Under the pieces are notes generated by a model. The model saw only the letters and a program-made list of their open reading frames with translations, searched no databases and was not told the DNA's origin. Made by a program: the position numbers and the translations under genes. Positions 8,568 through 50,143 of a stretch of 64,000 nucleotides of DNA are shown piece by piece (position 1 is the stretch's first letter; each line of letters opens with the position of its first letter). Source of the stretch: Intestinibaculum porci (GTDB lineage Bacteria > Bacillota_I > Bacilli_A > Erysipelotrichales > Coprobacillaceae); the NCBI RefSeq assembly GCF_003925875.1, contig NZ_AP019309.1:744001-808000 (forward strand), written 5' to 3'.

Positions 8568-8856
8568 AAGCTCATATTTGCGTTCTAAGACGTTTTAAAT
8601 CAATTCGAGTATATTTACACGTGATTATTACTTTTCGTCGGCATAAGCGTTTAAAATGGCTATAAATAATAAAGACGGCGCTTTAAAGTAGCGTAGGCTA
8701 TCCAGTTTTTTGGGGTTTTTCAAACCGTAGGGTTTGCACCTCCCCACGAAAACTTATAGGCCTTTGGAGTAAATAAAACTCCCACTATACTGAGCGTATT
8801 GTTAGCGAAGACTCACAGTCTGAGAAATCTGGCTGATGGGTCTTCGCTATTTACTT
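8568..8856. other. Non-coding remnant between the Mob relic and the next gene
   Basis: No gene seen. An inverted repeat AGCGAAGAC (8804-8812) / GTCTTCGCT (8840-8848) is present. A segment near 8617-8637 (ACGTGATTATTACTTTTCGTCG) is similar to the reverse complement of 19095-19120, so the two outer parts of the mosaic share diverged sequence. Confidence 0.45.
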
Positions 8857-9528
8857 TTACAGGTGTGCCTGGTGATAAGCCAGGCGCTTTTTATATCGCT
8901 CAACTGCCTGATTATAAAACCGGTAGGCCTCCAGAAAGCTGGCTGAATACAGGAAGAACATGCCATCCAGTTTATAAAGCGGATTGGTAAAGAACCAGTG
9001 ACCATCATTAATCCATTTAATGCATGCTCCTTCCTCACGGGGAGTGACTGGGTGATCCTTCTTGTACTTCTCGAAATCATAGAAATCAATAACCATGTAG
9101 CTTTGATCCTCTTCAGTCAGTTCGTCTGTATGAGGATCTCTTTTTTGAATATTAGTGTAATCAGCTTCGAAGTAGTTATTTCTAAAGCCGTTTTTATAGG
9201 CTTCAATGATGAGTCTCTGCATGAATGTGGCTTCGGCTATGTTCATAGGACGGCCGTTGTTGTCTTTCATATTAAATTCATTGGCATAGAAGCTATGGCC
9301 GCTGCGTATCCAGTCAATACAGTGCTGTTCCTCATCATTCATAAGCTCAATGGATGTTTCCTTATCAAGAAACCTATCGAGTTCATCCAGATAATGACGA
9401 GTGTCCTCGTCGTCGTAATAAATATTATTATCAGGAGCACAGCTGGGTTCCAGTCTATCGCAGGCATCATATTCCTTTCTGTATTCTCCATAGTTTTTAA
9501 GATCTTTTGAGTAGGTGTGTTTGCTCAT
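8857..9528 (-). CDS. Hypothetical protein with an internal duplication
   Basis: 223 aa, not recognised. Two repeats are visible: residues 66-112 (EEQHCIDWIRSGHSFYANEF ... LIIEAY) and 165-203 (EEGACIKWINDGHWFFTNPL ... FLEAY), sharing C-I-x-W-I-x-x-G-H-x-F and a LEAY end. The N-terminal 60 residues are very acidic. No signal peptide or membrane segment. An AAAGGA site precedes the ATG. It follows the RHH gene on the same strand, with a terminator-like hairpin between. The last ~12 residues run into the hairpin at 8867, so the C-terminus may be a junction product. Confidence 0.6.
   Translation of the reverse strand: MSKHTYSKDLKNYGEYRKEYDACDRLEPSCAPDNNIYYDDEDTRHYLDELDRFLDKETSIELMNDEEQHCIDWIRSGHSFYANEFNMKDNNGRPMNIAEATFMQRLIIEAYKNGFRNNYFEADYTNIQKRDPHTDELTEEDQSYMVIDFYDFEKYKKDHPVTPREEGACIKWINDGHWFFTNPLYKLDGMFFLYSASFLEAYRFYNQAVERYKKRLAYHQAHL
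8867..8892 (+). terminator. Rho-independent terminator (plus strand)
   Basis: GCCTGG / CCAGGC stem followed by GCTTTTTA. It overlaps the 3' end of the minus-strand gene that follows, which suggests that gene's tail was taken from foreign sequence. Confidence 0.6.
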
Positions 9529-9560
9529 AATATTTATGTCCTTTCTGTTTATAAAATAAA

Positions 9561-9585
9561 GCGGAGAGGCATAAAGCTTCTCCGC
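9561..9585 (-). terminator. Hairpin between the RHH gene and the duplicated-domain gene
   Basis: GCGGAGA / TCTCCGC stem followed on the minus strand by TTTATTTT. It may reduce expression of the downstream gene relative to the RHH gene. Confidence 0.6.
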
Positions 9586-9594
9586 AGATGGTTG

Positions 9595-9786
9595 TTATTC
9601 ATCTGGTTCATGATCGAATAGTGATTCCTGCCTCCAGCTTACGTCATATTTGACTTTCGCATTCATGATCCAGGATGTCAGTGCTGATGACATCGACTGG
9701 TGCTGTTCAAATGCATACTGGTGAAGTCTTTCGTAGACTTCGGGATCAAGAGAGAAGGAAACCATTTTTCTTTTTTGCTTTTTCAT
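9595..9786 (-). CDS. Small ribbon-helix-helix DNA-binding protein
   Basis: 63 aa. The start KKQKRKMVSFSLDPEVYERL followed by an amphipathic helix pair (HQYAFEQHQSMSSALTSWIM) fits an Arc/CopG/MetJ fold: a basic strand, then two helices. These proteins bind tandem operator repeats as dimers, and four 11-bp repeats lie directly upstream, so autoregulation is likely. It heads a two-gene minus-strand unit with the 223-aa protein. A copy-control protein, an antitoxin or a transposon regulator are all possible; I cannot choose. Confidence 0.65.
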   Translation of the reverse strand: MKKQKRKMVSFSLDPEVYERLHQYAFEQHQSMSSALTSWIMNAKVKYDVSWRQESLFDHEPDE

Positions 9787-9803
9787 TTTCTTTGCTTCCT
9801 TTC

Positions 9804-9847
9804 ATATATAATGGCTATATAGGCGTTATATAAGACTTATATAAGGT
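9804..9847. repeat. Four tandem 11-bp operator-like iterons upstream of the RHH gene
   Basis: ATATATAATGG, CTATATAGGCG, TTATATAAGAC and TTATATAAGGT follow each other with no gap: one helical turn each, sharing the TATATA core. They fill the space between the RHH start and the ISL3 transposase stop. Confidence 0.7.
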
Positions 9848-9848
9848 T

Positions 9849-10868
9849 TTATCGCTTGCTTCTGGAACCTTTGTCGTTAATTCTGTCTCTGCTGATTGGC
9901 TGCGGCTCCAAGAAGAAAGATGTATCCATGCCAAGACAGTAAAGAACTCTGTTGCGGAATCTTGACCAGTTGGAATAACCATTAGCGCAGCACTTTATCG
10001 ATTGTATAATGCGGTTACGATTCTCTATTACGCTCGAGTTCATGCGTCTGGTTTTCTTCTGACGGTTCTTAGCGATAAAATTCTTAATCAGTTCGGTCTC
10101 AGCGTTATTGAGATCGTCATCAATGATAAATTCTTCGCCGATCTGAACAGGCTCAAAGTAGTTGAGAATTTCCTGCTTCCAGTTGGCAAGTGTATTAGCG
10201 AAATCATTCATTTCCTTCACCTGTGAGGCGTGGAAATTGGTAATAAGCTCCTTGAGAGCCTTGGCGGCTGTCTTCAGGTCATTTTTTCTAAAAAAAGCAT
10301 ATAGGCATTCCTGCAGCGCGACAGCTTCTCTTAACTCATCATCTATATCGAGAATCATATAGTAGATTTCATAGTAATTAAGGTAACGTTTAAATACTTT
10401 GTTGTATTTCTTTTCGTTATTGGGATCAAAACATTTGTCATCAGGACGTTTGTAGAACATCCATTTGAATTTTTTCAGAAGATAGTAGTTAATGATCTTC
10501 TGTTCATATTCTTCCTGTTCCTGAGGCGACATCGCTTTGATTTCCTCAGGCTTCTTTTTCTTGACGTAATTGTCTTTCATAACACGGATACGTACATCCT
10601 GCAGCTTTCTAGAAAGTTCAGCCTTAAGATGAAATGTATCAACTACGTGCTTGCTGTTGGGGAAGAACTGCTTTGATACAGAACGGTAGGTTTCCCACAT
10701 GTCCGAGCTGGTCATGCGCACCTGATCTCTTTCATCCTTAGGAATCTTAGAAAAGTAGTTCTGAAGATCATCCTTTTTTCTTGTAGGAAGGATATCAATG
10801 ATTGCTAGTGTCTCAAAATCCATAAGGACATATACATAATCCCCTTGAGAAGAGTGAAAACTATAGGT
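9849..10868 (-). pseudogene. ISL3-family transposase, C-terminal part (split gene)
   Basis: About 339 codons in frame, running from the 6-bp core at 10869-10874 through DETYSFHSSQ, LMDFETLAIIDILPTRKKDD and SSDMWETYRSVSKQFFPNSKHVVDTFH to the stop. This is the catalytic DDE region of ISL3 transposases with the all-alpha insertion. The matching N-terminal 186 codons lie at 15011-15568, and the RIT-like element separates them. Joining at the core gives one protein of about 525 aa. As it stands this half has no start of its own except an internal ATG at 10823. Confidence 0.85.
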
Positions 10869-10955
10869 CTCATCTTATGGAGAAAAAGTATTATGGGAAG
10901 TCGTTTTTAATTATGACCAAGTGCTAGTCTTTTTTCATTCCGGACTTCCCATAAT
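10869..10955 (+). repeat. Left 87-bp terminal inverted repeat of the RIT-like element
   Basis: It matches the reverse complement of 14904-14990 with one mismatch. It contains the core CTCATC and two oppositely oriented TTATGGGAAGTC motifs (10890-10901 and 10943-10954), good candidates for recombinase binding sites. Confidence 0.85.
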
Positions 10956-10964
10956 TATTTAAGC

Positions 10965-11990
10965 TTATCGAATCATTTTATTAAGCCATTCTTCCAAGTT
11001 GTCTTTTTCGTCTTCATTGAATTCCTCTTCTTCAATAAGATTTTGTGCAGCTTCTTCAAGGTGCTTTCTTTTGATTTCTGGATTTGTTTTAGAATAGATC
11101 TCAGTTGTAGTAACTGATGCATGACCAAGAAGATCTCTTATATAAATTAAGTTGACGCCATTTTCAAGTAGATGTGTTGCTTTAGAATGGCGAAGTGAAT
11201 GTGGTGAAATCCTTTCAGGGAAAAGGCTCGGATTCATTTGCTTAGCTCTCTGAAAGCATTTATTGACAATATAAGCGACACCTTTGCGTGAAAGCTGTTC
11301 TCCATGTATATTCATAAATAAAAAATCTTCTGCATCAATTCCATATAGATCAGTATATCTTTTAATAATCCTGACTACGCTTGCATCGATGGGAACTATT
11401 CTTGATTTATTTCCCTTGCCGTGTAATATTAATGTATGTGGTGCTTTAAGCTTGATTTCACTTCTTCTGATGGCAGTCAGTTCTGAAACTCTTGCACCAC
11501 TTTCGTATAAAAGAAGAATAATGCATAGGTCCCTTAAATCACCGGGATCATTTTGATCAAATGTAGAGAATAAGAATTCAGTTGCTTCAACTGTTAAATA
11601 GTTCATTGGCTTGCTTTCAAATTTCTTCATTTTGATTTTTGAGACTGTACTGCATGTATTAACATATTCAGGCGCTTCATAGCTTACGTAAGCCATAAAT
11701 GATTTGATAGCTGCCAGCCTGTTGTTTCTGGTGTTCGCTGAAACACCTTTTTCATTTTCAAGATAATCAAGGAAACTGATGATACTGGCATATCCGAGCA
11801 TTTCTATCGTTATTTTAGAAGGATTTATATTTTCTTTTTCCTTCATGTAATCAAACAATTCCTTAAAAGCATAACTATAGTTAGTGACCGTATTACTGCT
11901 GAAGCCCCTCTGCTTAGGCAGATAAACCATCAGAAACTTGCTTAACAGTTTTGGAAAGTCATTCTTAAATGTCTTTTTCTTCATTGTCAT
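10965..11990 (-). CDS. Tyrosine recombinase C of the trio
   Basis: 341 aa. An N-terminal SAM-like core-binding domain (to ~120) is followed by a phage-integrase catalytic domain: Arg in ESGARVSELT, then HSLRHSKATHLL, LLGHASVTTTEIYSK with the nucleophile Tyr. All catalytic positions look intact. It overlaps recombinase B by 26 bp, so the two are probably translationally coupled. The acidic C-terminal tail (EEEEFNEDEKDNLEEW) is unusual. It ends just inside the left inverted repeat. In RIT elements all three recombinases are thought to act together in transposition. Confidence 0.9.
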   Translation of the reverse strand: MTMKKKTFKNDFPKLLSKFLMVYLPKQRGFSSNTVTNYSYAFKELFDYMKEKENINPSKITIEMLGYASIISFLDYLENEKGVSANTRNNRLAAIKSFMAYVSYEAPEYVNTCSTVSKIKMKKFESKPMNYLTVEATEFLFSTFDQNDPGDLRDLCIILLLYESGARVSELTAIRRSEIKLKAPHTLILHGKGNKSRIVPIDASVVRIIKRYTDLYGIDAEDFLFMNIHGEQLSRKGVAYIVNKCFQRAKQMNPSLFPERISPHSLRHSKATHLLENGVNLIYIRDLLGHASVTTTEIYSKTNPEIKRKHLEEAAQNLIEEEEFNEDEKDNLEEWLNKMIR

Positions 11991-12954
11991 TTCCTAACCC
12001 CTTTTCATAAATATAGTGACCGGCATTAACGATTTCATCATAATGCTCTTTGGTTAACCTTAAATATTTCTCAGTGCTTTCAATTCCCTTATGTCCAAGC
12101 ATGGTGCTAAGATAAGGAAGCGCACAGTAGGGATCCCAGCCAAGCTCAATCATATGGCTAAGCATAGCGCATGCAGAACTATGACGAATGTCATGAATAC
12201 GTATTTTGTACTTTCCATTCCATATATTTATGCCTGCCTTTGGCAGTATGGTTCTTTGAAATAGTATGCAAACTTGCTGTGATCTTTTCCTTTTCCCTGT
12301 TTTTCCTGCTCTTGGAGCTGGAAAGAAATAATCATCTGGATCGCCATCTATATTTCCACCTTTAAGAAGCCATTTTCTAAGTGATTCATTAAAAGGAATT
12401 AGTCGAGTAACGTTGTTCTTAGCATTATTTACTTTGATAACGTTACTTGTAAAATCTACATCCTTCACCTTAAGATCAAGCGTTTCTCCAACCCTCATCG
12501 CTGTAGCATACAGGAGTCTGAGCTCTGTTTGATAGAAATGATACATCATATTTTCTGAAGCGAGGATATCGATAGCCTTGAAAATACTTTGCATTTCCTG
12601 TTTTGAGAATATATATGGAACGAAATCTGTAGTATTTTTAATATGCTTTTCAGGATAGACATAAACATTTTCATATCCCATATTCTTCATATATAGACCG
12701 ACCTGTCGTATACGTGATTCACAGTTATGGATAGTGGACGGGGCCTTGCCTTCGTTTTGATGAATATATCCCTTAGCCATTTCACGTGTGAGTATGGGCG
12801 CATTAAGATCGTATGTTTCAAGATAATTATTCAGTTTTAATAGTCCTGCAATAATGGTGTAATCGAACGCAAATCCGAGTGACCTTTTATATTCTACATA
12901 GCCAACAAATACCTCTCGGAAAACGCCATGAAAGTTTTCAATCGTGATACTCAT
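11965..12954 (-). CDS. Tyrosine recombinase B of the trio
   Basis: 329 aa from the ATG at 12954, chosen because GGAGGT lies 5 nt before it; an earlier in-frame ATG at 12996 lacks this. Catalytic signature: TAMRVGETLDLK (Arg), IHDIRHSSACAML and MLGHKGIESTEKYLRL (Tyr). The 5' end overlaps recombinase A by 17 bp. It presumably forms a complex with A and C on the 87-bp ends. Confidence 0.9.
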   Translation of the reverse strand: MSITIENFHGVFREVFVGYVEYKRSLGFAFDYTIIAGLLKLNNYLETYDLNAPILTREMAKGYIHQNEGKAPSTIHNCESRIRQVGLYMKNMGYENVYVYPEKHIKNTTDFVPYIFSKQEMQSIFKAIDILASENMMYHFYQTELRLLYATAMRVGETLDLKVKDVDFTSNVIKVNNAKNNVTRLIPFNESLRKWLLKGGNIDGDPDDYFFPAPRAGKTGKRKRSQQVCILFQRTILPKAGINIWNGKYKIRIHDIRHSSACAMLSHMIELGWDPYCALPYLSTMLGHKGIESTEKYLRLTKEHYDEIVNAGHYIYEKGLGNDNEEKDI

Positions 12955-13852
12955 TGGGAACCTCCAGGCAGAGACAGCGCAGTGTTTCCACATCAATAGA
13001 AAGATATCTGCTTGTTGTATTAAGATTTTTATGGCCTAGAATACCTGTGATAACAGGCATTGGTGTGTTTTTATTTAGTAAATTGGTTGCAAGTGAATGG
13101 CGCAGGGCATGCGCTCCATTCTTTCTCTCGCCAATCTCCACATCAGATTTTTTAAAGTAATACTTAACAAGGGCTGTAAGTTCTGAACGGCAATATGTGG
13201 TCCCGGTGTCTGGGTTAATAAATACATACTCATTATAATCTTTCAGGCTCTTTGGTCTTATATCTCTTAGGTATGCAATTAGCAGATATCGAACTTCTTT
13301 TGATATGGGAACGCTGACTCTGCAGGCTGTCTTTATCTGTGGCTTTTCAATAAGATTCTTATCCCATTTAATGTCACTTAGCTTCAGCTGAAGAATATCG
13401 CTAGCTCTTAGACCTGTCTGAGCAGCCAGCATAATCATAGTTTTTGTCCGTAAGTAGTTTTGACTATTCGGTTTGATTTCACTCAACATCATTTTGATTT
13501 CTTTTTCTGTATAATAGGAAGGGAGCGTCGATCGCCTATTCGTAAAGATAACTGGAAAAAGTCTACGTCCATCAACAGTTGCTAGATCATTTTTATGGAG
13601 AATATCGAAGAAATTTCTCAATGTAAAAGCAACCATACTTTTCGTTTGTGATCTGTAAGGAAGCTGATTAATAAATTTGAATACAATAGAAAGGTCAAAA
13701 TCATGAAAATCATTTACATCATTATCAAATACATAGCTTAGAAAGGGTTGTACGTGATTACACTTATGTTTAATCGTAGCTTCTACCAAATCAGGCTTCT
13801 GATTATCTCTAAATATCTTCAGATAATAATTCACAAATTCACTTTTATCCAT
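12938..13852 (-). CDS. Tyrosine recombinase A of the trio
   Basis: 304 aa, first of the three. Catalytic residues: AAQTGLRASDIL (Arg), AHALRHSLATNLL and ILGHKNLNTTSRYLSI (Tyr). GGGAGGT precedes the ATG by 9 nt. It overlaps a 30-codon ORF upstream by 8 bp. The three genes differ strongly from each other, as expected for a stable trio rather than a recent duplication. Confidence 0.9.
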   Translation of the reverse strand: MDKSEFVNYYLKIFRDNQKPDLVEATIKHKCNHVQPFLSYVFDNDVNDFHDFDLSIVFKFINQLPYRSQTKSMVAFTLRNFFDILHKNDLATVDGRRLFPVIFTNRRSTLPSYYTEKEIKMMLSEIKPNSQNYLRTKTMIMLAAQTGLRASDILQLKLSDIKWDKNLIEKPQIKTACRVSVPISKEVRYLLIAYLRDIRPKSLKDYNEYVFINPDTGTTYCRSELTALVKYYFKKSDVEIGERKNGAHALRHSLATNLLNKNTPMPVITGILGHKNLNTTSRYLSIDVETLRCLCLEVPNEYHD

Positions 13853-13937
13853 TACTCATTACCTCCCACAAAAGGACATACTGCATCTTAATCTGTACTT
13901 TCAATTTAGCTGATGCAGTCATACTAATACTCGTCAT
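13845..13937 (-). CDS. 30-residue ORF leading into the recombinase operon
   Basis: It starts with a strong AGGAGG site 8 nt before the ATG (MTSISMTASAKLKVQIKMQY...) and ends 8 bp inside recombinase A. The better ribosome site belongs to this ORF, so it may couple translation or act as a leader peptide. A TATAAT-like -10 lies ~30 bp upstream (near 13975). No homology claimed. Confidence 0.5.
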   Translation of the reverse strand: MTSISMTASAKLKVQIKMQYVLLWEVMSNG

Positions 13938-14071
13938 TTTATATACCTCCTCTCGCTTTAAATGACAAAATCATTATATAACAGACATAATCATGAATCG
14001 TGTCCTGTCTTATTTATAAAGCAAAATATGAAGCTATAATCGAATATATTTGAAATGTATCCAAATAATAT

Positions 14072-14704
14072 TCATGTCACATATTCGTAGTGAATCATAT
14101 GTTTTAAAGAAAATATTCGCTCTTTCAGGATATTGTAAATAATGTTTATTGAATTGTTTGGATTACTAAAAAATGCACGAATAAAGTAGCTGAAGACAGA
14201 TTCACCTAAATACTTTTTATAAAGTATCAGGTAACGTAAATAGTCTTTCTTCCATCTATACATGGTCGAACGTGGAATATTAAACTTAGTAGATATACTA
14301 CAGGCTGTCTTATCATTCTTATGATTATCCCAGTATATCAAAACAGATAAAATGAACTGAATGGAATACTGGTGTTTAAACATGATAAAAAAGGCAGGAA
14401 GAAGCGAATGATAGCTGTTTGTATTCACGCTGTACATGAGCGGTATTTCAATTGTACTTATATTCATTTGCCCGTTATAAAATGTGATAAGATATCTAAA
14501 ATATTTTCTTTTTGTAAGTTTACATGGTATCTTTTTTGGCTTCTTTCTGCTCTTGTAAGAATGATGATCATAACAGCAGGACTGAGAGGATAATTCATTT
14601 ATAAAACTGCAGAAATCTTCAAAATCGATATCAAAGATCGATCTTCCTTCATAAAGTCTTTTTCTCAAAAAGGTGTTGAAAAAAGCAAACACTGATAGTA
14701 ACAT
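14072..14704 (-). CDS. RIT-associated accessory protein with a helix-turn-helix (DUF6431-like?)
   Basis: 210 aa. The middle has basic and cysteine-containing stretches (SCCYDHHSYKSRKKPKK) and SLLPAFFIMF; the C-terminal half has a clear HTH (ACSISTKFNIPRSTMYRWKKDY). The pattern C..H.Y..R followed by a LLPAF/VLPSF block is shared loosely with the 200-aa proteins at 15652 and 18260. I think both belong to the DUF6431 group found beside recombinases, but this is a pattern judgement. The N-terminus (MLLSVFAFFNTF) is atypical and may be truncated. Confidence 0.5.
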   Translation of the reverse strand: MLLSVFAFFNTFLRKRLYEGRSIFDIDFEDFCSFINELSSQSCCYDHHSYKSRKKPKKIPCKLTKRKYFRYLITFYNGQMNISTIEIPLMYSVNTNSYHSLLPAFFIMFKHQYSIQFILSVLIYWDNHKNDKTACSISTKFNIPRSTMYRWKKDYLRYLILYKKYLGESVFSYFIRAFFSNPNNSINIIYNILKERIFSLKHMIHYEYVT

Positions 14705-14903
14705 GGTGCACGTGGGGAATCTTCAAAGTAAGCGACCAAACTTATAGCTTTGAAGATCCTTTCCTTTCTGTATCTTTGCATGAGATAATTTTATCATAAT
14801 TACATCAGTCACGAAATATAAGTTATCTGAATGGTCACTTTTTGCCTCAGATAACTTTTTAATTTGAGTATACAGTACATAAATGTGATTCCAAAGATAA
14901 AAT

Positions 14904-14990
14904 ATTATGGGAAGTCCGGAATGAAAAAAGACCAGCACTTGGTCATAATTAAAAACGACTTCCCATAATACTTTTTCTCCATAAGATGAG
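14904..14990 (-). repeat. Right 87-bp terminal inverted repeat of the RIT-like element
   Basis: Reverse complement of 10869-10955 with one mismatch. Outside it lie 20 further bp with another TTATGGGAAG (14991-15000) before the outer CTCATC core, so the right end is longer than the left and the ends are not symmetrical. Confidence 0.85.
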
Positions 14991-15010
14991 TTATGGGAAG
15001 CTAGACATAA

Positions 15011-15568
15011 CTCATCCATTACCAAATATTTAGTAAGTTTTTTTCTGGGAATGTTGACATGCGCATCAAAGATTCTCTGAACGGTGGTGGGGCTTAGAAA
15101 ATATCTGTTGGCGACCGATGTGAACGTTTCGTTGGGATCACGCAAGTCCTTCAAAACCAGAAACACGGTCGTGACAGAGACTTTTTCACCAGGAAAGGTG
15201 AAGGGGTTTTCCTCATTGAACGTCTTACCGCAGTTCTTGCATTCGAATCTTCGCTGTTTGTAATCAATTATGCATGGCGCATGAGCGAGGACGGAATGGC
15301 GGACCTTCTTGATTTTGTATCCCTTAACCTTGATCTCTTCGGATCGGCACATAGGACAGCTGCAGTCGCCTCTGTTGAGCGTTATCTGAACATGAAGCTC
15401 ATCTTTTTCACTGGATATTTTAAACTCTTCAACCTGGGATTCCTTGATGTTGAAAAGCTTTAGCACATCATCATTGAATGAAAAAGCTTTAACGGTGCTA
15501 TCGGAAACAGCATCAGAGCTGCTCCCGGCGTTCTTGTTACTGATTATTAAGTTTTTATCTTTAGGCAT
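15011..15568 (-). pseudogene. ISL3-family transposase, N-terminal part (split gene)
   Basis: 186 codons of transposase, from MPKDKNLIISNKNAG to KYLVMDE, where the RIT-like element begins; the frame then reads 95 more codons into the element (stop at 14723). A zinc-binding domain is visible (CSCPMCRSE and RRFECKNCGKTF), then an HTH (TSVANRYFLSPTTVQRIF). The break falls on the MDE codons, at the first catalytic Asp. An AAAGGAG site lies 13 nt before the start. Its rest is at 9849-10868. Confidence 0.85.
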
Positions 15569-15621
15569 TGTAAATTATGCACTCCTTTCATCAATGCAGC
15601 TTCATTATAGGAAAGAACGAA

Positions 15622-16201
15622 GGGCACAAAATACATAGCTCGTGTGGAAAGTTATATCAAAAAAATCAGTCTCTTAATGGAAAGGCTTACATTTAAAGGC
15701 ACTCGACTGAAAATCCTAAAGAGATCTTTTACTGAGCTGATGATGCGGCCCTTGAGCTTTGCTTTGATGTAGCTGAAAAAGGATGAACTGCAGGGCGGCA
15801 CATAGTTGATGATTCTGCTCGCCAGAGACTCATTAGCCGTATTGTCAGACTGATCACTGACTTCATCATTATTGAGGATATTAAGTTCTATGCAGACATG
15901 AATGACATCCTGGACACAGTTCTGCATGTAAGGTAATAGAAAGCTTGGAAGGACAACGTGCGTCTCATGATCATCAGGATTATCTCTGTTGATTTTCTTG
16001 ACGCGTAAAAGTTTTAGGGTGTATTTAGCACCATTAATAATAACACTGCGATGGACATAGCCATGAACGTAGCACTTGTAATTGCGCCACTTGCTTCTGA
16101 GCTGATCAAGGATCTGCTCTGTGTCATAGTATTTATTAAAGTCATTTAGGAAAGTTTCTTCATCAATCGTATTGATTTCTTGCTTGTAATGCGATATTAT
16201 C
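15622..16201. repeat. 580-bp direct repeat, copy 1
   Basis: Identical in my reading to 18230-18809. It holds nearly all of a DUF6431-like gene. The IS1634-type element lies exactly between the two copies. Confidence 0.9.
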
Positions 16202-16257
16202 CCATATTTTACAGTTAATAAGCTAATAAAGGCAAAATGTATTGATGTATTCAACAT
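15652..16257 (-). pseudogene. DUF6431-like protein, copy 1, with 5' end replaced by IS sequence
   Basis: From GIISHYKQEINTIDEETF onward it equals the copy at 18260. The first ~18 residues (MLNTSIHFAFISLLTVKYG) are encoded by the end of the neighbouring IS, so the native start was lost. Core features: YKCYVHGYVHRSVIINGAKY, then THVVLPSFLLPYMQNCVQDV, a putative Zn or nucleic-acid-binding block. Such proteins often accompany ISL3-like or recombinase-bearing elements; their role is unknown to me. Confidence 0.6.
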
Positions 16258-18229
16258 ATTTTGCCTTCCTTTTATTTAAATCAGTTTCGTACTTTTTTTA
16301 GAATTAACGACTCTTTGAAATTTTTTTAAATATTTTTGAGTAATTATTTTTCGTGAGGGCTGAAAGCCAAAAACTTCAGCCAGGTCATCCACAATTTCTG
16401 TCCTTTTAAAGGACGGAATATAGTTTGTTCCATTTATATAGGTTAGGTTAAGATCACGGAGTGTATCAAATAATTCTGCACATGTATATTTCTCATTCAT
16501 ATACTTTTTCTCAAGCAGGCGATAAACCAGCAGGGCAATAAAGCATATTAGGAGATGACCGTTGATTGAATGTTCTTTTGTGACATACATAGGTCTTGTT
16601 TTTAGTTCGCTTTTCATTATTTCAAAGTTTTCTTCAATCTCCCAGCGCTGCTTGTTTGCGCTAATAATCAATGAAAGATCATCGTCTTCAAGATCAGTGG
16701 TAACGGCATAGAAGCCATCATACTTTTCTTCCTCAGCGATTTTTTCCTCATCAATCATATAAACCGTTTCATTAGCCACCTCGCCATTCTTGGTGACTGA
16801 TGCTTTAGAAATATAGTAGCGGGGATCTCGCTGGTTTGTTTTTGTGAGCTTTCCTGGGTTATTAAGGAGCTTTCTGGCTCTTTCCAGTTTCTTTTCTCTG
16901 ATGTGTTTCTGATAGCTGGCAAATTTTCTTGAATAAGTAACTATGTAGTTTTCTTCAAGGGTGTACTTGCCGCCCGATGACTCGGATTTCTTAGTTCTTT
17001 TTTCCCATCGGTTCTTGTAGAAAACAAGATCCTTTATTTTTCTTTTTACACCCTCAATTTCAATGGTTTCCTTATCAGCCAGGTCATTAAGATTAAAAGT
17101 TCCGGCATACCCCTCAAGCTTCCATCCTTCTGGAGATATTGCCCATTCCTTCATGACTTTTGACATTTTCTTGATTGGCTGGGTGACAATATAGGCACCG
17201 TTTTTCTTCATGTCATTATATACCTTGTTTTCCCAGCCGTTGAGACCTGCATCAGCACAGACAACAAACTTTGAAACTGCAAAGTCCCTTTCAACAATAG
17301 CCTCTAACTCTCTCATGGATTTTTGCTCATTCATATTGCCCTGAAAGACATAATCAGCTAAAGGGAGACCATCAGCATCCATAAACAGACCATACTGAAC
17401 AATAGGATTAGGTCTGTTTTCCTTGCTTTTTCCGTATTTTCTGTAGTCATCCTCTTCTTCAATCTCAAAATAGAAATTTGTGCAGTCATAGTAGAGAACC
17501 GCTGTGTTCTTCTTGAAAAGCTGTGAACTGTTTTTGTAAAGCATTTTTTCAATGAAGTATCTTTGCTCAGAGAGAACCTTGAGGGAACGGTAAACATCCG
17601 CCAGTTCATAATCAGACAAATCAAAAAACTTACTGCATGACTTATACGTAGACAGCTTTGATGAGGGATAAATAACCCTGGCAGAAACAAGATCATTAAT
17701 AATGCTCGCTAAATTATACTGAAACTTGTACTGGTCTGATATCTCATTGCAGATATCCTTAATGCCCAAAGAACACAGTATGTTTCTGATGTACATATAG
17801 CCGATATTAAAGAGATTTTCCTTGTCTTTTTCTATTAGGTCATCCTGACTAAGAATCAGCTTAACATCTGCCTTGTCCTCACTGTCTTTTTGTCTGAGTT
17901 CATCAAGATAAAGCTTAAGCTGCTTCATGACCTCATCACGGGAATCGGTATGATACTTGTCCATGAGAGTCCTAATATTGCCCAGTTTTTCAACAACGAA
18001 GGTTGATTTTTTTCTAGTGTTAGGATCATAGAAGTCGTCGATAATATAGAATGATTCAGAGTTTTTAGATTTGGTTGATTTTAAACGTTTAGCCATATGG
18101 AAGCCCTCCCATATCATTATAACATACATTACGGAATATTACGAGTCTAAAATTAACAAAAGTTGACAAAAAAACGCTTTTTTCAAGCGCATAATTTGAG
18201 ATATTAGGTTGTCTAACTGTAAAATCCCC
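16202..18229 (-). mobile_element. IS1634-type insertion sequence
   Basis: 2028 bp between the two 580-bp repeats, with one transposase gene. Near its ends ATTTTACAGTTA (16206-16217) faces TAACTGTAAAAT (18214-18225): a perfect 12-bp inverted repeat. The exact ends and target duplication cannot be fixed because the repeats abut the element. Confidence 0.75.
16276..18096 (-). CDS. IS1634-family transposase (IS4 group, DDE)
   Basis: 606 aa from the ATG at 18096; GGGAGG lies 8 nt before it, which favours it over the ATG at 18129. The catalytic DDE residues are visible in LYYDCTNFYFE, VVCADAGLNGW and KQRWEIEENFEIMKSEL, the last being the YREK-like region. Length and order agree with IS1634/IS1549 transposases. 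No stop or frameshift, so the IS is probably active. Confidence 0.9.
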   Translation of the reverse strand: MAKRLKSTKSKNSESFYIIDDFYDPNTRKKSTFVVEKLGNIRTLMDKYHTDSRDEVMKQLKLYLDELRQKDSEDKADVKLILSQDDLIEKDKENLFNIGYMYIRNILCSLGIKDICNEISDQYKFQYNLASIINDLVSARVIYPSSKLSTYKSCSKFFDLSDYELADVYRSLKVLSEQRYFIEKMLYKNSSQLFKKNTAVLYYDCTNFYFEIEEEDDYRKYGKSKENRPNPIVQYGLFMDADGLPLADYVFQGNMNEQKSMRELEAIVERDFAVSKFVVCADAGLNGWENKVYNDMKKNGAYIVTQPIKKMSKVMKEWAISPEGWKLEGYAGTFNLNDLADKETIEIEGVKRKIKDLVFYKNRWEKRTKKSESSGGKYTLEENYIVTYSRKFASYQKHIREKKLERARKLLNNPGKLTKTNQRDPRYYISKASVTKNGEVANETVYMIDEEKIAEEEKYDGFYAVTTDLEDDDLSLIISANKQRWEIEENFEIMKSELKTRPMYVTKEHSINGHLLICFIALLVYRLLEKKYMNEKYTCAELFDTLRDLNLTYINGTNYIPSFKRTEIVDDLAEVFGFQPSRKIITQKYLKKFQRVVNSKKSTKLI

Positions 18230-18809
18230 GGGCACAAAATACATAGCTCGTGTGGAAAGTTATATCAAAAAAATCAGTCTCTTAATGGAAAGGCTTACAT
18301 TTAAAGGCACTCGACTGAAAATCCTAAAGAGATCTTTTACTGAGCTGATGATGCGGCCCTTGAGCTTTGCTTTGATGTAGCTGAAAAAGGATGAACTGCA
18401 GGGCGGCACATAGTTGATGATTCTGCTCGCCAGAGACTCATTAGCCGTATTGTCAGACTGATCACTGACTTCATCATTATTGAGGATATTAAGTTCTATG
18501 CAGACATGAATGACATCCTGGACACAGTTCTGCATGTAAGGTAATAGAAAGCTTGGAAGGACAACGTGCGTCTCATGATCATCAGGATTATCTCTGTTGA
18601 TTTTCTTGACGCGTAAAAGTTTTAGGGTGTATTTAGCACCATTAATAATAACACTGCGATGGACATAGCCATGAACGTAGCACTTGTAATTGCGCCACTT
18701 GCTTCTGAGCTGATCAAGGATCTGCTCTGTGTCATAGTATTTATTAAAGTCATTTAGGAAAGTTTCTTCATCAATCGTATTGATTTCTTGCTTGTAATGC
18801 GATATTATC
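18230..18809. repeat. 580-bp direct repeat, copy 2
   Basis: Identical to 15622-16201. This copy keeps its native right-hand context (18810 onward), which reappears in decayed form at 48800-48975. Confidence 0.9.
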
Positions 18810-18862
18810 ATCTTGTCTTGTTGGACAGATGAAGAACAAACTTTGGTCGGAGAGTTCTTCAT
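18260..18862 (-). CDS. DUF6431-like protein, copy 2
   Basis: 200 aa. The start is uncertain: MKNSPTKVCSS at 18862 or MIISHYKQE at 18808; neither has a strong ribosome site. It shows YKCYVHGYVHRSVIINGAKY, basic LKLLRVKKINRD, and THVVLPSFLLPY, then a C-terminal segment rich in hydrophobic and basic residues (FSYIKAKLKGRIISSVKDLF). Function not known; it is probably an accessory protein of a mobile element, since the same gene end occurs at a second locus (48.8 kb). Confidence 0.6.
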   Translation of the reverse strand: MKNSPTKVCSSSVQQDKMIISHYKQEINTIDEETFLNDFNKYYDTEQILDQLRSKWRNYKCYVHGYVHRSVIINGAKYTLKLLRVKKINRDNPDDHETHVVLPSFLLPYMQNCVQDVIHVCIELNILNNDEVSDQSDNTANESLASRIINYVPPCSSSFFSYIKAKLKGRIISSVKDLFRIFSRVPLNVSLSIKRLIFLI

Positions 18863-19020
18863 CTTTTTTTTCTTTCTGTAGATTTTTAAGTTCTGTATAT
18901 GGATAATAACATAGTTTAGAACGTATCAGAACCCCACGAAAGTGAAAAGAACAAGAAATATTTAAAAACCAAAAACCACACAAAATGGTGGAGCCTGCTC
19001 AGACCCCACCGTAATTTAGA
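18770..19020. repeat. Intact counterpart of the element end also found at 48.8 kb
   Basis: From TTGATTTCTTG through a hairpin to AGAACAAGAAATATTTAAAA and a GGTGG...CCACC hairpin, this segment is similar to 48800-48975. Changes in the second hairpin stem appear compensated between copies. Confidence 0.6.
18828..18871 (+). terminator. Terminator-like hairpin at the 5' side of the DUF6431-like gene
   Basis: GATGAAGAAC / GTTCTTCATC (10-bp perfect stem, 16-nt loop) followed by a run of T. Its decayed equivalent is at 48846-48876. Confidence 0.65.
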
Positions 19021-19027
19021 TTATCAT

Positions 19028-19076
19028 AAAGACAAGGGCGAACAACGTGAGCAACGTTTACCCTTGTCTTTTTATT
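19028..19076 (+). terminator. Rho-independent terminator
   Basis: AAAGACAAGGG / CCCTTGTCTTT, perfect 11-bp stem, then TTTATTTT. Confidence 0.8.
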
Positions 19077-21218: not shown

Positions 21219-21367
21219 TAGTGAGCACTCCGGTAAGGAGCGCAATGCAGAACATTGAAAACTGAAAAGAAACACGTCAAAGAACTCATTTTTGAGCGGT
21301 GAACAAAACACCGAAAACAAATAGTCAGAAGTAATTTAAAGAGCTTATTCAAAGCTCCATTCATAAA

Positions 21368-22895
<1,528 letters not shown>

Positions 22896-23157
22896 AGGGA
22901 GAAATGCGTGTTTCTTTTCGGTTTTCTCTGCTTTGCAGAGAAGGAAGACCCTTGAAAACCGCATACAATCAAAAGCAAAGAGAAGACTTATTAATTCAAA
23001 TTAGTAAGACTTCCTGCAAACACTATATAAGGATAAGATCAGAGAAACATCAAAGGTCTAGAATCTGGTATAGTGGGCAAAAGCTAAGATAAACAAGAGA
23101 AACAGTTAGATCAAGAATAACAGTCAGTAAACTCAAGCTTATTCATATCAACTTTCA
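22896..23157 (+). other. 16S-23S spacer without tRNA
   Basis: About 260 bp with processing stems and TTGAAAACCGCATAC, typical of antitermination and leader regions. I see no tRNA cloverleaf here. Confidence 0.8.
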
Positions 23158-26043
<2,886 letters not shown>

Positions 26044-26081
26044 GAGAAGAGATTGTGTGCGGTTTTCAGGGGAGATCCTGA

Positions 26082-26193
26082 GATCCGGTAGCGAAGGCGT
26101 GATGGAGACACCCGTACCCATGCCGAACACGGAAGTTAAGCATCACAGCGTCGATGATAGTCAGCAATGGCGACAATAGAACGCTGCCGGTCG
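26082..26193 (+). rRNA. 5S ribosomal RNA
   Basis: About 112 nt. ATCCGGTAGCGAAGGCG pairs with CGCTGCCGGT at the 3' end, and CCGTACCCATGCCGAACACG is the conserved loop B/C region. Confidence 0.95.
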
Positions 26194-49756: not shown

Positions 49757-50143
49757 TGGTCAACTACCCGCGACTAAAGTCGCAGGCTTGTCTCGCGCAA
49801 GTCTAAGACTGGCGTCGGTACATATGTACTAGCTGATTAGCCTAATGTGTTTCGGGCACTACGTTATCCGCAAAAATACAGGCACCTGGGGATTCTTCCC
49901 ACGTCCCTCGCTCTGCGGGCATGCATTAAACATCTCTGACGGGCAGGAGAAGTGTGCATGTCATACACAACTGCGGATAACCTTGGCGATGGGAACTACC
50001 CTGAAAGGGAGAAACTGCATATATACTGCCTCTGGCAAGCATATGCAGGCGTGCGTAAGCACACACTTATTCATCAATCTTAGCTCAGCTGATTAAGTTT
50101 ATATATTCAAACGTTATTATTTTACAGGAAAGGAGGAATTTCC
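49757..50143 (+). ncRNA. Candidate omega-RNA of IscB
   Basis: A ~390-nt non-coding, GC-richer stretch directly before iscB, as in known ISC loci. Several stems: the terminal hairpin, GTACATATGTAC, GTGCGTAAGCAC, and a long-range 10-bp pairing GTTATCCGCA (49863-49872) with TGCGGATAAC (49972-49981). The guide would be read from the flank just left of the element, around 49740-49757, aimed at the empty site. Confidence 0.65.

Follow-up and report, generated by a model that had tools for sequence, protein, structure and literature searches.

Two questions about RIT elements are still open in the field (PMC3414803, PMC10214605): how they select a target, and what makes a set of three recombinases necessary. 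The locus analysed here raises the first of them: within the window, the whole 64,000-nucleotide stretch of Intestinibaculum porci DNA, a trio of recombinase genes splits an ISL3 transposase exactly at the codons of an Asp-Glu pair. The most likely explanation is that a RIT element was inserted site-specifically, at a 6-bp core, into the transposase codons for the first catalytic Asp and the Glu that follows it through tyrosine-recombinase strand exchange; the strand exchange and the activity of the element are inferred from its sequence.

Membership of the RIT family and insertion exactly at the core are very likely. Three adjacent, co-directional and overlapping tyrosine recombinase genes, all assigned to Phage_integrase and all with intact R, HxxRH and Y catalytic motifs, meet the RIT criterion, as do imperfect terminal inverted repeats of ~110 bp. 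The best matches of the A, B and C products were the colinear RitA (29%), RitB (30%) and RitC (36%) of Cupriavidus pHG1. The element thus resembles the RITs of Cupriavidus pHG1/CH34 in its three co-directional overlapping genes with one-to-one homologues, and known RIT elements in general in having inverted terminal repeats whose ends carry a palindrome and in earlier cases found inside a transposase gene and in radC (PMC3414803). It differs from the pHG1/CH34 elements in a RitA without the N-terminal part, in its ~110-bp terminal repeats and in a passenger ORF. RitA proteins carry two successive CB domains (PMC8138268), and the first ~140 residues of pHG1 RitA have no counterpart in the window protein; judged from this alignment, the trio is likely a short-RitA variant from which the first CB domain is probably missing. 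Evidence for transposition of the RIT is indirect only, namely three identical copies in two orientations. Elsewhere in the genome, a 31% relative of the passenger ORF is found upstream of a further transposase that a RIT has interrupted (L059 2626-3132).

Table 1. Features of the RIT-interrupted ISL3 element (window positions) and target sites of related trio loci (L numbers).
Feature	Location	Strand	Remark
RIT-like element including both outer cores	10869-15016	-	3 identical genomic copies
Outer core GATGAG, N-side junction, codons D185-E186	15011-15016	-	
20-bp near-palindrome TTATGTCTAGCTTCCCATAA, two back-to-back half-sites	14991-15010	-	Inverted in copy 3
Inner inverted core CTCATC (GATGAG on +)	14985-14990	-	
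Far core GATGAG, C-side junction	10869-10874	-	
Terminal inverted repeat, N side, ~112 bp	14879-14990	-	93% identical to the C-side repeat
Terminal inverted repeat, C side	10869-10981	-	
ritA-like tyrosine recombinase, 304 aa	12938-13852	-	Matches pHG1 RitA 141-419 only; N-terminal part absent
ritB-like tyrosine recombinase	11965-12996	-	Listed start TTG, likely ATG at 12954
ritC-like tyrosine recombinase, 341 aa	10965-11990	-	
Passenger ORF, 210 aa	14072-14704	-	HTH-like stretch by visual inspection; matches no family
ISL3 transposase, N-terminal part: zinc ribbon, HTH	15017-15568	-	
ISL3 transposase, C-terminal part: DDE domain	9849-10868	-	
Whole ISL3-family IS with RIT inside	8677-19025	-	Also broken by IS1634-like element
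8-bp target duplication ATAAAGAC of the IS	8669-8676 and 19026-19033		
IS21 IstA D-W	L051 (both ends), L050 (one end)		D124-W125 of solved IstA
IS21 IstA N-L directly after D187	L136, L139		Mapped on solved IstA
IS21 IstA, few codons before third Glu	L119		By motif
IstB Walker A	L096		
AAA_14 ATPase Walker A	L101		
Predicted AAA-ATPase DEYDTP	L049 (one end)		Core GATGAG again; Walker B is our own reading
IS66 GC-WAH-ARR	L055, L056, L057		Three copies, both orientations
IS66 LD directly before third Glu	L126		
rve-type transposase adjoining KIER	L059		
rve-type transposases, few codons before KIER	L061, L109, L125		
Group II intron RT PQ-GG	L052, L099, L102, L105, L138, L176, L184		
ISL3	L121		
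IS1182-like	L064		
IS200	L127		
IS256	L181		
Tyrosine recombinase at ERY-LGY in pHG1	L135		Motif evidence only
Helicase	L185		
Directly beside group II intron domain V (non-coding)	L054, L111, L112, L123		Rfam group II intron matches, some below gathering score

The first-pass annotation had claimed that GATGAG occurs at both junctions on the minus strand, encoding the D-E of KYLVMDE, and that removal of the element plus one core joins 186 and 339 codons in frame. Both claims held: the joined frame is a 525-aa ISL3 transposase reading ...KYLVM-DE-TYSFHSSQGDY..., with ISL3 domains on both halves (Pfam), and the target IS meets the ISL3 family criteria of an ISL3 DDE transposase, a zinc ribbon and an 8-bp target duplication. 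Missed at that stage were the third, inverted core, the 20-bp near-palindrome between the two left cores (outer GATGAG and inner inverted core), the ~110-bp repeats and two more copies of the element, one of them inverted.

The claim that the pair includes the first catalytic Asp was also supported. D185-E186 was present and invariant in all 25 uninterrupted ISL3 relatives (23 non-redundant) taken from the same taxonomic order, and ranked in the top 0.85% of two-residue windows by conservation. D185, D242 and E468 were all invariant in the same set, consistent with a DDE triad, the triad assignment itself being inferred from family knowledge. At the DNA level, GATGAR codons occupied the site in 21 of 21 relatives whose site DNA was read, and the nearest uninterrupted relative (55% identity) carries GATGAG-ACCTATG at the insertion point, as in the window. 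GATGAG bounds all three copies and is present in uninterrupted relatives, which shows that its role at the junctions is beyond chance. The hexamer was found 39 times in the window (33 expected), and extrapolation of the window density to the 3.21-Mb single-contig genome gives an expectation of ~1,600-2,000 sites. Therefore, recognition is inferred to extend beyond the 6-bp core, and the core alone as the full target was rejected as too common. An ISL3 relative at L170 (G002:C62, 540-2800) is broken a few bases past the same GATGAG codons; it was considered as a second RIT case and rejected, as the interrupting element is an IS21.

A genome search found three full RIT copies without a single difference in 4,148 bp, each flanked by the same ISL3 C-part, and none in unrelated sequence; the three ISL3-family IS copies that carry them are all entered at the same GATGAG. 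The three IS loci carry differing 8-bp target duplications, ATAAAGAC, TTTTTTGA and GGAGATGT, indicating that the IS transposed three times. While the RIT copies were identical, the IS flanks (~3,380 bp) differed at 12 sites between copies 1 and 2 and at 24 sites between copies 1 and 3, which under equal rates has a probability of ~7e-5 and ~5e-9, respectively. Therefore, the RIT entered, or was exchanged between, IS copies that had already diverged, and separate insertions, or homogenisation of the RIT only, probably fit better than co-transposition. A conversion tract between copies 1 and 2, which share one orientation, is not excluded, and homogenisation of the RIT copies by gene conversion could possibly imitate independent insertion.

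Relative to the IS, the RIT of copy 3 is turned round, precisely between the cores. Along the coding strand of ISL3, the sequence of copies 1 and 2 is GATGAG-TTATGTCTAGCTTCCCATAA-CTCATC-TTATGGAG...CTCCATAA-GATGAG, and copy 3 reads GATGAG-TTATGGGAAGCTAGACATAA-CTCATC-TTATGGAG...; the layout is thus the same, with the element and the 20-bp piece both inverted. One inversion between the inner and far cores cannot yield this layout; a circle that came back in through its other core would, we infer, produce it in a single step. In the proposed mechanism, the trio would join both ends into a circle, which is inferred from the sequence, none having been observed. The joint of the circle would consist of two tandem symmetric core sites, (half-site)-X-(half-site)(half-site)-X'-(half-site), with X' the inverted core. 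Either core of the joint may recombine with the target core, which would allow entry in both orientations and always leave the 20-bp piece on the same side of the target. A preference for DNA that encodes conserved motifs of multicopy mobile elements would secure a supply of targets and break the host element, an adaptive reason that is likewise inferred.

Related trio loci were drawn from relatives and from plasmids, and their junctions were sought by script. A junction call required the outer core, the 20 bp, the inverted core and the arms, since a looser automated search gave many false pairs inside terminal repeats; candidates with a long joined frame were favoured in ranking, and target families were named by Pfam. 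A scan of genome contigs with the RitA-like protein confirmed no relatives. Junctions were clear at only 5 of the 14 additional plasmid loci, and many trios were left with unresolved ends (L134, L137, L100, L098, L107, L108, L177-L180, L183, L186-L189 and others); two loci with resolved junctions (L182, L106) had no clear target gene.

The resolved trios share one junction order: an outer 6-bp core comes first, followed by a 20-bp near-palindrome of two half-sites and an inverted core, and the far end repeats the outer core. The 20-bp piece in relatives is a near-perfect palindrome, e.g., TTATGTGGAA-TTCCACATAA, that is, two back-to-back half-sites resembling the ends of the terminal repeats. 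Its side was fixed by the target whatever the orientation of the trio, as seen in 13 insertions at three mixed-orientation sites (ISL3 DE, RT GG and IS66 WAH); the IstA D-W site also obeyed the rule, with L050 included by hand reading. This constant side fits the joint with two symmetric cores, itself an inference from sequence. In several loci the cores differ by at least one base, the three core positions carrying different alleles (L055/L056/L057, L052, L102, L176). At L112 (G035:C72), a RIT carries the 20-bp dual-core piece at both ends and joins two domain V sites of differing cores, GTGCAA and GTGGTG, possibly as the product of a rearrangement. In the present genome, a second RIT lineage fills all three copies found of one IS66 (G000:C1 846068-851278, 1230187-1233623 and 2205341-2208777), in both orientations and with reassorted core alleles.

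Of ~30 related trios with resolved ends, most interrupt conserved motifs of other mobile elements (Table 1; IstA catalytic residues from PMC10122671); in rve-type transposases the site hit is that of the third Glu. The claim of the first-pass annotation that the target lies inside conserved IS catalytic codons thus held when related trios were examined, both those in group II introns and those in IS families other than ISL3. It has two limits. RIT lineages do not all use one core (GATGAG, GACTGG, GG codons and others occur), and the conserved motif is not in every case the catalytic residue itself (rve NSK, ISL3 YAN, IS200 VA and IS256 FYD). Conservation was scored as the fraction of windows of equal size that match or exceed the core in conservation, in alignments of 7-23 non-redundant sequences. 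The fractions were 0.0085 for ISL3 DE, 0.0098 for IstA DW, 0.020 for IS66 WAH, 0.039 for RT GG and 0.047 for IstA NL, and weaker for ISL3 YAN (0.17), rve KI (0.18) and rve NSK (0.46). Hence, the tendency of RIT cores to fall in conserved motifs is strong, but not absolute. The bias most likely arises because conserved codons are conserved DNA in multicopy elements, and sensing of the protein is not needed.

Three other explanations were considered. The first is a single RIT insertion after which the ISL3 element copied itself with the RIT inside, as a composite IS::RIT with transposase supplied in trans. All three copies are indeed IS::RIT with clean 8-bp duplications, and near-identical Tn::RIT composites are known in Acidithiobacillus (PMC3414803). 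However, the divergence of the flanks around identical RIT copies, the inversion of the RIT with its 20-bp piece within the same cores of copy 3, and the broken transposase in every ISL3 IS copy of this kind in the genome make it unlikely. The second is that the active-site preference is a sampling effect, as mobile elements are abundant and a frame-based search over-represents conserved motifs. The ranking did reward long joined frames, and some sites are only moderately conserved; however, junctions had to show dual cores and arms at the DNA level, the same motifs recurred independently (RT GG seven times, IstA D-W twice, IS66 WAH three times), and non-coding targets also lay at a conserved catalytic part, intron domain V, so we doubt this explanation too. 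The third, that the trio is mainly a switch inverting or excising in place within the ISL3 transposase and not a transposon, is very unlikely: although the inverted inner and far cores and the two direct outer cores make both inversion and precise excision possible, and one copy is inverted, a single inner/far-core inversion would leave the 20-bp piece unturned, the reading frame is restored in neither orientation, and relatives sit in many unrelated genes.

Site-specific RIT insertion, the reading we prefer, can be compared with known systems. Like the Tn554 family, the element has tyrosine recombinases, a 6-bp footprint and a site-specific target (PMC10214605); the core of Tn554 is GATGTA, in radC. 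Membership of that family (TnpA, long TnpB and TnpC) was not met, as the element has three short recombinases, no long TnpB and no TnpC-like gene that could be found in it. Strand-biased circularizing elements (SEs) likewise have a 6-bp spacer between inverted end motifs and a 6-bp fingerprint and footprint, and one of them entered insJ of IS3 (PMC10214605). Membership was again not met, as SEs carry IntA, Tfp, IntB and Srap, whereas the window element consists of the trio and one unrelated ORF, and the description of SEs includes neither a 20-bp piece made of two half-sites nor, with it, a second inverted core (PMC10214605). The 6-bp footprints of SEs and Tn554 (PMC10214605) are reminiscent of the differing core alleles of RITs. 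GInts share three recombinase-type genes, site-specific circular forms and variants of the attachment-site sequence (PMC5385486), but have a four-gene set, ginABCD, and often lie at gene ends (e.g., ssb) without full inactivation, whereas the RIT cuts its target gene in the active site. Inteins and homing introns also favour those codons of a target gene that are most conserved; unlike them, the RIT has no splicing and inactivates its target.

RIT target specificity was not tested in PMC10214605, and no description of RIT target motifs or of the 26-bp dual-core end was found in the literature searched, which excluded the main RIT paper (Ricker 2013, Plasmid 70:226). RIT elements themselves are known; within that literature, the suggested target rule and the dual-core end anatomy appear new. 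A rule placing cores in conserved motif codons of mobile elements, with a two-core end explaining both orientations, provides concrete substrates and predictions. If the rule is general, insertion sequences and group II introns would have in RITs a natural inactivator guided by sequence. On balance, and by a narrow margin, we lean towards a bolder reading in which the whole class of RITs lives as hyperparasites on other mobile elements: any one lineage would recognise the DNA of a motif that is conserved and in most cases catalytic (in transposases, group II intron RTs, intron domain V or helper ATPases), and the symmetric two-core joint would permit entry in either orientation, with the host element disabled.

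Several other features were noted. The IS1634-family element that also breaks the host IS (transposase 16276-18129) is bounded by an exact 580-bp direct target duplication (window 15622-16201 and 18230-18809), and a second IS1634-family copy, in the G000:C1:2412000-2414000 region, has a 92-bp duplication; very long target duplications are known from IS1634. A complete rRNA operon (16S, 23S and 5S; window 21367-26192) is separated by 2.3 kb from the nearer end of the ISL3 element, and a HEARO RNA (HNH endonuclease-associated RNA) was found at window 49759-50001, with a score above the gathering threshold.
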